Assembly: GCF_003050785.1 (NCBI RefSeq)
Contig: NZ_QAOH01000003.1
Span: 248,001-312,000, forward strand
Source of the DNA: Celeribacter persicus
Lineage (GTDB): Bacteria; Pseudomonadota; Alphaproteobacteria; Rhodobacterales; Rhodobacteraceae
Direction of reading: 5' to 3'
DNA length: 64,000 nucleotides
Below, in pieces: positions 13,523 to 14,823 of the stretch. The notes beneath the pieces were generated by a model, which was not told the origin of the DNA, did not search any database, and saw only the letters and a program-made list of their open reading frames with translations. Position numbers and translations under genes: made by a program. Positions within the stretch are counted from its first letter, which is position 1; each line of letters starts with the position of its first letter.

Positions 13523-14164
13523 ATGAATCGTATCCTTCCTGGCATTCTTGCCATGGCCGCCATTGTCGTGGCCTCCAACATCCTCGTTCAGTTCCTCATC
13601 GCAGATGGGCTTCTGACATGGGGCGCTTTCACCTATCCCTTCGCCTTTCTCGTCACCGACGTGATGAACCGGGTCTATGGCGTACAATCCGCGCGCAAGG
13701 TCATCTTTGCCGGTTTCGTCACCGGGATCGTGTGCTCCCTTATCGGCACGCAGATCACCCTGCAAGGCGACGGCTATACCTATCAGGCTGTGGCGCTTCG
13801 TGTCGCCATTGGGTCCGCCATTGCTTTCCTCATCGCCCAGCTCACGGACGTGTTCGTGTTCGACAAGCTGCGGGAAGGCTCGTGGTGGAAAGCCCCCTTT
13901 GCCTCCTCGATCATCGGCTCCGCTCTCGATACCGCAATCTTCTTTTCCATCGCCTTCTCGCAGAACCTTCATGTCTTTGGCGAAAGCGCGGATATGGAAG
14001 TGTCTTGGGCCTGGGAAAGCGTGCCTTTCCTGAATTTTGGCACTCCTGTTCCTCTTTGGGTTTCGCTCGCAGTGGCCGATTGGTGTGTGAAACTTGCCCT
14101 CGCTTTGATCGCTCTGGTGCCTTTCCGCCTAATTGTTAGGCGGCTCACGGCACGTATGGTATAA
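13523..14164 (+). CDS. yhhQ: Queuosine precursor transporter (YhhQ/YpdP family, COG1738)
   Basis: 213-residue membrane protein with about six hydrophobic helices. The segments TYPFAFLVTDVMNRVYG and the D-K-R-G-WWKA region are characteristic of the YhhQ family, which imports preQ0 or preQ1 for queuosine synthesis in tRNA. No queuosine synthesis gene is near it in the window. Regulation by a preQ1-I-like leader is suggested by the structure just upstream. The start is the ATG at 13523. Confidence 0.9.
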   Translation: MNRILPGILAMAAIVVASNILVQFLIADGLLTWGAFTYPFAFLVTDVMNRVYGVQSARKVIFAGFVTGIVCSLIGTQITLQGDGYTYQAVALRVAIGSAIAFLIAQLTDVFVFDKLREGSWWKAPFASSIIGSALDTAIFFSIAFSQNLHVFGESADMEVSWAWESVPFLNFGTPVPLWVSLAVADWCVKLALALIALVPFRLIVRRLTARMV

Positions 14165-14219
14165 ATTTACTTGCCATATACCAAATCTGTGCCACCATTT
14201 ACCTATCGGCAATTCATCG

Positions 14220-14235
14220 AAAGGAGGTGGTCCAG
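14220..14235 (+). promoter_or_regulatory. Extreme Shine-Dalgarno: 16-nt complement of the 16S rRNA 3' tail
   Basis: AAAGGAGGTGGTCCAG can pair with the standard bacterial 16S 3' end (CUGGAUCACCUCCUUU) over 16 consecutive positions, with one G-U pair and no mismatch. Ordinary ribosome binding sites in this window pair over 4-7 positions. It sits 7 nt before a GTG codon. The segment ATCTCCT at 14342-14348 is complementary to its AGGAGGT core and could mask it. Confidence 0.75.
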
Positions 14236-14291
14236 TGTCTAGAGTGATGTTGGAGAGCGAGGTCAAGACAGTCGGGGGGGCCGCCACCTAG
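14235..14291 (+). CDS. 18-codon mini-ORF in the arfB leader (possible leader peptide)
   Basis: GTG-started frame reading VSRVMLESEVKTVGGAAT then TAG (initial residue would be fMet). It is supported only by the exceptionally strong ribosome binding site 7 nt upstream and by lying inside a short unit that ends in an intrinsic terminator. The peptide is not recognised. An internal ATG at 14247 is an alternative start. The stop region overlaps a small hairpin, CTAGA/TCTAG at 14288-14304. It may be a leader peptide, an sRNA-borne small protein, or just a ribosome-binding decoy. Confidence 0.4.
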   Translation: MSRVMLESEVKTVGGAAT

Positions 14292-14358
14292 AGGAAAAAT
14301 CTAGTGTGAAACATCCCTGATTGGGTCTTCCTAACTGGCCCATCTCCTGAGATCTCGG

Positions 14359-14390
14359 AGGGCTGCTCTATCTGGCAGCCCTTTTCCTTT
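14359..14390 (+). terminator. Rho-independent terminator between the mini-ORF and arfB
   Basis: AGGGCTGC at 14359-14366 pairs with GCAGCCCT at 14375-14382 as a perfect 8-bp stem with an 8-nt loop, followed by TTTTCCTTT. It ends 17 nt before the arfB start. It therefore either ends a stand-alone small transcript or acts as an attenuator in the arfB leader. Confidence 0.82.
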
Positions 14391-14406
14391 GCGCTATAGT
14401 TGCCCC

Positions 14407-14823
14407 ATGCCCCTGACCGTCACAGATCAAATCACCATCGCCGACTGGGAACTCACCGAGCAATTCATCCGCTCGTCGGGGCCCGGTGGGCAGAACGTGA
14501 ACAAGGTCTCCACGGCGGTCGAGTTGCGGTTTGAAGCGGCGCGCTCTCCTAATTTACCCGAACCTGTGAAAAACCGCTTGAGACGCTTGGCCGGACGACG
14601 CTGGACCAAGGAAGGCGCTGTCGTCATTCAGGTCGAAGAGACCCGGTCGCAGGCGCGAAATAGGGAGATCGCGCGGGAGCGATTGGCCGAACTGGTGCAG
14701 AAGGCGCTTGTGGTGCCGAAACGCCGGGTGAAGACGAAGCCGACGAAAGGGAGCGTTGAGCGGCGGATCAAGGCGAAGAAGGAACGGGGGGAGGTTAAGA
14801 AGTTGCGGGGGAAGGTGGGTTAG
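14407..14823 (+). CDS. arfB: Alternative ribosome-rescue factor ArfB (YaeJ)
   Basis: Peptidyl-tRNA hydrolase that enters ribosomes stalled at the end of truncated mRNAs and releases the nascent chain. The 138-residue length is normal for the family. The catalytic GGQ motif is in SSGPGGQNVNKVST at about residues 23-36, and a lysine/arginine-rich C-terminal tail (VKTKPTKGSVERRIKAKK) matches the part that inserts into the empty mRNA channel. The ATG at 14407 is preferred over the TTG at 14389, which lies within the terminator T-run. The 3' end overlaps the convergent next gene by 4 bp. Confidence 0.93.
   Translation: MPLTVTDQITIADWELTEQFIRSSGPGGQNVNKVSTAVELRFEAARSPNLPEPVKNRLRRLAGRRWTKEGAVVIQVEETRSQARNREIARERLAELVQKALVVPKRRVKTKPTKGSVERRIKAKKERGEVKKLRGKVG

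Follow-up and report, generated by a model that had tools for sequence, protein, structure and literature searches.

We consider it rather likely that the DNA between yhhQ and arfB in the window (the 64-kb stretch of Celeribacter persicus DNA analysed here) holds an autonomous, terminated RNA gene of ~180 nt, within which a micro-ORF has its ribosome-binding site masked by the RNA itself. The RNA is probably translation-gated and a gene in its own right, not a switch for arfB, which encodes a ribosome-rescue factor. Sequence comparison supports its predicted parts: a promoter-like block, a masked Shine-Dalgarno sequence (SD), a start codon held in helix P2, a pseudoknot, an 18-codon frame and a terminator (Table 1). 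An earlier, sequence-only reading had described a unit in this interval, and all the elements that it named are present where it placed them. On the side opposite arfB the unit is flanked by yhhQ, which a Pfam search identified as Vut_1. Across the 64-kb window, neither Rfam at the gathering threshold nor a tRNA/tmRNA search returned a match.

Table 1. Features of the unit between yhhQ and arfB, in window positions; the 5' end of the RNA was placed (~14204-14206) from the -10 box.
Feature	Position	Strand	Basis
RNA promoter, predicted, TTGCCA-16-CACCAT	14171..14198	+	position-conserved block in relatives
RNA, predicted, ~180 nt	14205..14390	+	matches to RF01867 and covariance model R1
Extended Shine-Dalgarno, 17-nt complement of the 16S 3' tail	14219..14235	+	duplex energy, conservation
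GTG mini-ORF, 18 codons and TAG (MSRVMLESEVKTVGGAAT)	14235..14291	+	length kept in relatives
P1 5' strand, SD core AGGAGGUGG	14222..14230	+	MFE pairing with 14340-14348, relatives
P1 3' strand, anti-SD element CCAUCUCCU	14340..14348	+	MFE, relatives
P2 hairpin with start codon (14231-14238/14247-14254)	14231..14254	+	helix 2 in relatives
Pseudoknot 5' strand in P2 loop, only 3 bp in window	14242..14244	+	helix 3
Pseudoknot 3' strand, just ahead of terminator	14354..14356	+	covariation
P3 5' strand	14262..14265	+	helix 4 in relatives
P3 3' strand	14336..14339	+	helix 4 in relatives
Intrinsic terminator of the RNA	14359..14390	+	helix 5 in relatives, control stretches
arfB promoter, predicted, CTGGCA-17-TATAGT, overlaps terminator	14372..14400	+	promoter scan, offsets in relatives
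arfB (Pfam RF-1 domain PF00472, 1.3e-22), neighbour outside the RNA	14407..14823	+	Pfam

The most conspicuous part is the sequence AAAGGAGGTGGTCCAG (14220-14235), for which a mismatch-free complement to the 16S rRNA tail with one G-U had been claimed; the claim was borne out, and together with G14219 the pairing with the 16S tail of the same genome reaches 17 bp. The predicted duplex is worth -32.4 kcal/mol; two SDs used as yardsticks reach -8.2 and -13.6. When the whole genome was searched with the 16-mer at no more than one mismatch, two sites were returned, the unit and the 16S 3' end, and the reversed control pattern returned one. With three mismatches allowed in the 64-kb window a match was also obtained in 26 of 100 shuffles, so that it is the exactness and the conservation of the match that carry the case. 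The bare 10-mer AAAGGAGGTG is no commoner than its reversed control (seven sites in the genome against nine), and hence only the extended form is special. Among the 90 pattern loci, contiguous 16S pairing spans 16-18 nt in 87 and is 12 or 14 nt long in the remaining three, but these loci were selected for the 16S complement and were measured with substituted flanks; in 30 divergent loci, measured with their real flanks, it spans 10-12 nt in 27 and 16 nt in three. The comparison thus marks AAAGGAGGUG as the nearly fixed part, the longer 16S complement being common but dispensable. Given the 27 shorter divergent copies, a fixed 16-nt complement was dropped as an essential part, and competition cannot involve the whole 16S tail in every copy.

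The unit is conserved in almost all Rhodobacterales sampled. A search of 244 genomes (100 genera) from the order for a 19-mer, allowing one mismatch, gave matches in 192 genomes and 77 genera, with no match to the reversed control in the rows listed, and the covariance model R1 matched 233 of the 244 genomes and 97 of the 100 genera at E <= 0.001, although two of these 233 matches (G064, E 4e-4; G150, E 2e-4) are no better than noise in other genomes. R1 was built from alignment A1, comprising the 79 of 85 sequences that passed an identity filter (L009, L016, L018, L029 and L087 having been left out beforehand), so that a match of the model to these loci is built in; its match in the window (14213-14384, 137.7 bits) is to one of these 79 building sequences.

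By sequence and model comparison, the unit and the Caulobacter sRNA CC2171 (RF01867) are divergent relatives. The RF01867 model matches the window at 14211-14382 with 30.8 bits, below the gathering cut-off of 75, yet this is the only match in the genome and its E-value of 1.7e-4 places the homology above chance. Of 142 genomes of the class, 26 were matched at E <= 0.001, five of them over the cut-off, and among 14 control genomes Caulobacter vibrioides alone was matched. In each of two genomes (G255, with L254/L255, and G281, with L256/L257) RF01867 matched twice, once weakly, which suggests that paralogous copies may exist; the second copy in G255 shows an 18-codon frame.

Outside Rhodobacterales the element is, as judged from pattern scans, widespread but patchy. 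A scan of named genomes returned at least 119 stretches, a few of them outside the class; the matches listed include Rhodobacterales, Bradyrhizobium, Bosea, Methylobacterium, Ancylobacter, Microvirga, Devosia, Brevundimonas, Phenylobacterium, Acetobacterales and others. A looser scan of the class matched 87 of 385 genomes and 67 of 277 genera, with the reversed control matching in eight genomes when counted by hand; these 87 are not all necessarily the element, and among 30 class loci inspected one (L115) is a long frame that we took to be unrelated. That a gapped pattern matched only one of 18 genomes from families mostly without matches likewise argues for patchiness. Two gammaproteobacterial loci, from a SAR92 cluster MAG (L181) and a Cellvibrionales MAG (L216), carry the same block around the AAAGGAGGTGATCCAGTGTC match, and their frame enters a strong hairpin and T run without a stop codon ahead of it, so that the predicted transcript is a tiny non-stop mRNA; by eye, a tRNA-like sequence lies just downstream in L181. 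A Gemmatimonadota MAG (L143) and an uncultured bacterium (L187) share a variant with an extended SD, a short frame and the segments CTGGCCAAC and CCTCGAGG.

The limits of the RNA are marked by a putative promoter and terminator. A strict promoter scan found sites in 60 of 90 relatives within the 85 nt upstream of the RNA and in three of 90 within the next 85 nt; the boxes in the window itself are weak and absent from the consensus scan list. The terminator claimed ahead of arfB is a hairpin, GGGCTGC/GCAGCCC (14360-14381), followed by a broken T tract ending 16 nt before the ATG at 14407. No terminator was listed at 14359-14390 when the window was scanned strictly, yet the claim is upheld by the relatives, 83 of 90 of which have a hairpin and T run at this distance, compared with none and two in two control stretches. 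Among the matches listed for named loci, 37 of 53 usable ones have both, versus one and three in control stretches. When terminator ends were chosen by a rule requiring T3, the lengths obtained fell between 187 and 212 nt in 87 of 90 loci.

Between these limits the RNA is predicted to fold back on its own SD. In the minimum free energy (MFE) structure of the window RNA taken alone (-75 kcal/mol, z -2.75), CCATCTCCT (14340-14348) pairs with AGGAGGTGG (14222-14230) in a 9-bp helix, which confirms the proposal that an ATCTCCT segment can pair with the SD core. The "small hairpin" described behind the mini-ORF belongs to a larger fold with several branches. Applied to 85 sequences in a MAFFT alignment that had not been fitted to any structure, RNAalifold and a covariation scan recovered the pairing of the SD core with CACCUCC, the start-codon hairpin, the P3 stem and the terminator. 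In the same scan the top covarying pair belonged to the pseudoknot, in which the hairpin loop pairs with the stretch before the terminator. When tails were permuted among species the pseudoknot pairing fell from 10.70 to 9.99 +/- 0.18, and the observed value was reached in 0 of 300 permutations. The covariation and conservation search that the sequence-only reading had proposed returned both a unit conserved in the order and covarying helices.

We also counted pairs in alignment A2. Its 99 sequences, of which 87 came from the 90 pattern loci and 12 were hand-picked after inspection from the 30 divergent loci, were fitted to R1, into which part of P1, P2, P3 and the terminator is built, the pseudoknot being absent from it. 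Of 3435 cells, 93.2% were paired, compared with 88.7% after shuffling and 43-54% after sliding, and 22 pairs had changed on both sides compared with 12.2 after shuffling; all these counts ignore phylogeny. P1 was paired in 96.8% of cells, with no pair changed on both sides because the SD is fixed. The other helices did show such double changes: three of eight pairs in P2 (93.2% paired), all five in the pseudoknot (78.7%), all five in P3 (93.3%) and nine of ten in the terminator (97.7%). The base beside the SD core, one position beyond P1, was compared as well. Among 76 distinct rows (37 of 169 without a recognisable segment were dropped, and 10 of the 30 divergent loci were unparsed), a C there goes with a G before CACCTCC in 10 of 18 rows versus 0 of the 58 others, although the C rows may share ancestry; a G goes with a C in 16 of 17, and an A with a T in only four of 41. 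The CCUCC segment can alternatively pair with GGAG of codons 6-7, which may represent a second state of the RNA.

Masking was also sought in each locus separately. In the 60 of 90 order loci tested, the SD partner within the RNA had a mean z of -1.97, with 58% below -1.5; in 60 named loci among the matches listed, which lack the Rhodobacterales-type peptide and include a few from outside the Alphaproteobacteria, the mean z was -1.39, with 57% below -1.5. The partner in other orders is often a look-alike of the 16S tail that lies inside the frame; for instance, in Methylobacterium tarhaniae the look-alike CCTGGATCGTCGCCTCCG forms the codons of TWIVAS. No masking partner stands out in three of four Bosea loci, both Brevundimonas loci and some others. 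We infer that self-masking recurs across orders, with the mask in different places.

The GTG mini-ORF of 18 codons proposed at 14235-14291 is present and is kept in the relatives. Of the 90 pattern loci, 85 have an 18-codon frame (the others have 12, 12, 17, 20 and 22 codons), and the stop codon is TGA in 41, TAG in 33 and TAA in 16. The frame again has 18 codons in 23 of the 30 divergent loci, drawn from genomes without the pattern. The divergent loci start with GTG (13), ATG (11) or TTG (six), the start being assigned by rule as an ATG, GTG or TTG located 11-17 nt past the core and followed by TC, AT or CA. Asked whether the frame is conserved in sequence or in length, a question posed by the sequence-only reading, the comparison answers mainly in favour of length and stop position: across 34 pairs a dN/dS-like ratio was 0.88 overall, with the two wrong frames at 0.80 and 1.04. 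By part, this ratio was 0.53 for codons 2-8, 0.59 for codons 9-12 and 1.25 for codons 13-18, indicating that the last six residues show no sign of purifying selection and that the first twelve codons, which overlap RNA structure, are mildly constrained. Frames in other orders have 14-57 codons and encode unrelated peptides. With weak peptide conservation, the peptide as a conserved product was set aside. As in a leader-peptide ORF, length and stop are kept and the peptide varies, with mild constraint over codons 2-12; a regulated gene in cis is not seen, no downstream gene being common across orders. Three loci of class relatives (L098, L119 and L120) have a frame of 54-57 codons behind the same extended SD, with a start that by eye resembles a signal peptide. 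The Devosia version (23 aa, pI 4.05) is similar in length and acidity, the only features by which we likened them, to SEP1 of Sinorhizobium (23 aa, pI 4.18), which had the top translation efficiency among novel sORFs according to an excerpt of its report (PMC10117765); a search with the Devosia peptide gave 0 of 240 matches, an empty result that is uninformative for this tool. Ribosome profiling in Caulobacter is reported to have found two formerly predicted ncRNAs to be translated (PMC4117421).

The sequence-only reading had suggested that the unit controls read-through into arfB, such that ribosome behaviour on the mini-ORF decides whether the terminator is passed. In the order, yhhQ lies upstream of the RNA in 80 of 90 loci. 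Synteny favours such an attenuator in that arfB follows on the same strand in 70 of these 90 loci, never on the opposite strand, at a median of 60 nt past the terminator; among the matches listed, it also follows in 43 of 59 named loci with a Rhodobacterales-type peptide. An attenuator is expected to keep its regulated gene downstream, however, and arfB was not found within the ~1.3-1.5 kb examined in the other 20 order loci, nor was arfB or yhhQ found beside the RNA in any of the 60 named loci, among the matches listed, whose peptide is of another type. The nearest downstream ORF, by a crude rule, is on the plus strand in 56 and on the minus strand in 55 of 111 named loci, again among the matches listed. 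Moreover, a promoter between the terminator and arfB, which had been named in advance as evidence against read-through, was found as a prediction: CTGGCA-17-TATAGT is the only promoter-like site in 14100-14500 (shuffles averaged 0.3). In 20 of 70 relatives a TAnnnT motif is positioned at -13/-12 relative to the arfB start, with no more than two at any single other offset, and this placement of the -10 box predicts that arfB is leaderless and independently transcribed. On this predicted promoter arfB is probably a separate gene with a leaderless mRNA, and the position of TAnnnT suggests that many Rhodobacterales have a leaderless arfB. A sequence past the stop codon, GGCAGCCC, resembles the 3' arm of the terminator; it seems unlikely to be an antiterminator, as by eye it ignores terminator changes in A1 and it is missing from the window, and no other alternative pairing in A1 tracks those changes by eye. 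We therefore regard attenuation of arfB as very unlikely, although the synteny could reflect some read-through coupling within the order.

Other functions for the RNA must be weighed against self-masked translation. A ribosome sitting on the SD might free CCUCC to pair with the SDs of other mRNAs, making the unit a trans-acting sRNA. CCUCC is strongly conserved and precedes the terminator, many sRNAs carry such an element in that position, and its relative in Caulobacter is classed as an sRNA; against this, CCUCC is paired in the fold, P1 accounts for its conservation and the fixed-length frame is left unexplained, and so we find this possible but doubtful. The second option of the sequence-only reading, an RNA that engages 30S subunits, may hold in some form; it is decidedly unlikely that the RNA is a decoy tying up 30S subunits through its 17-bp SD helix. 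The strength of that duplex and the breadth of the 19-mer would suit a decoy, but the SD is masked, most divergent copies offer 10-12 nt only, and decoy action has no need for a stop codon in a fixed place. Nor do we expect the RNA to be a plain mRNA for a functional micropeptide, which seems unlikely given a dN/dS-like ratio that rises above one in codons 13-18 and overall lies between those of the wrong frames, and given the unrelated peptides of other orders, even though frame and start are kept through start-codon changes and codons 2-12 are the more constrained. A tentative extension of the favoured reading, which we advance with considerable doubt, is that this widespread alphaproteobacterial RNA gauges free 30S subunits: an internal look-alike of the 16S tail would hold a maximal SD shut, only spare ribosomes would open the RNA, and it would then act in trans. 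For such a gauge the look-alike would lie in the 3' part in Rhodobacterales; in many Hyphomicrobiales and some Acetobacterales it would lie within the mini-ORF and there force peptide motifs such as TWIVAS.

Several known systems share features with the self-masked unit. Type I toxin mRNAs have a small ORF whose SD is masked by long-range pairing, and encode a hydrophobic membrane peptide; the unit has the first two features, but the window peptide of 18 aa has a GRAVY of 0.26, short of such hydrophobicity, and there is no conserved peptide. Cuckoo-type anti-SD sRNAs expose a CCUCC motif in loops, whereas here the element is paired in P1. CC2171 shares the 5' block (AU)CGAAAGGAGGUGRUCCAGUGUCU, a similar length and a terminator, and a similar long-range closure, in that the RF01867 consensus CAUuGuC (codons 3-5 in MSHC relatives) pairs with GaCaAUG before the terminator; it is filed as an sRNA gene and differs in mini-ORF body, anti-SD element and P2. 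In mainly open-access literature, we found nothing on CC2171/RF01867 beyond one table row, for Mesorhizobium huakuii (excerpt of PMC5596092), and one database line, in a table of the Rfam 15 paper (excerpt of PMC11701678). The closest working analogy is rpsU of Flavobacterium johnsoniae, whose extended SD depends for its use on access to the 16S tail; that mRNA, however, encodes a ribosomal protein in a phylum with a hidden anti-SD, and the excerpt of the report describes no self-masking mini-ORF RNA (PMC9976891). The rnTrpL/peTrpL RNA of Sinorhizobium is likewise small and terminated and has a micro-ORF of leader-peptide type, but is leaderless and trp-linked according to excerpts of PMC10117765 and PMC7298713, whereas the present unit has no downstream gene common across orders. 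The rbfL uORF of S. aureus, a short GUG uORF that acts through ribosome occupancy and involves extended SDs, differs in that it overlaps the ribosome-binding site of its regulated gene (excerpt of PMC13009471). We recognised no paper describing the self-masked mini-ORF layout in a mainly open-access literature, excerpts of PMC13009471, PMC4117421, PMC11005374, PMC5036791, PMC2873474, PMC5756330, PMC5082802, PMC10117765 and PMC9976891 included.

In the translation-gated RNA that we favour, the molecule would stay closed until a 30S subunit arrives, whose free 16S tail would contend with the internal anti-SD for the extended SD that both can pair with. As the ribosome initiates and sweeps through the frame, P2 and P3 would open and the 3' half would become exposed, and translation would keep the RNA open. 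What the open state delivers may be the peptide, an altered stability, or a freed CCUCC that base-pairs with other mRNAs.

The RNA, mostly single-copy, is present in nearly all sampled genomes of the order and in many other alphaproteobacterial families, and such wide retention makes it likely to matter to these bacteria. If self-masking is true, these bacteria would possess in the unit a small natural reporter of their initiation capacity. It would then also be a dual-function RNA, with a peptide sequence that is largely a by-product of RNA pairing.
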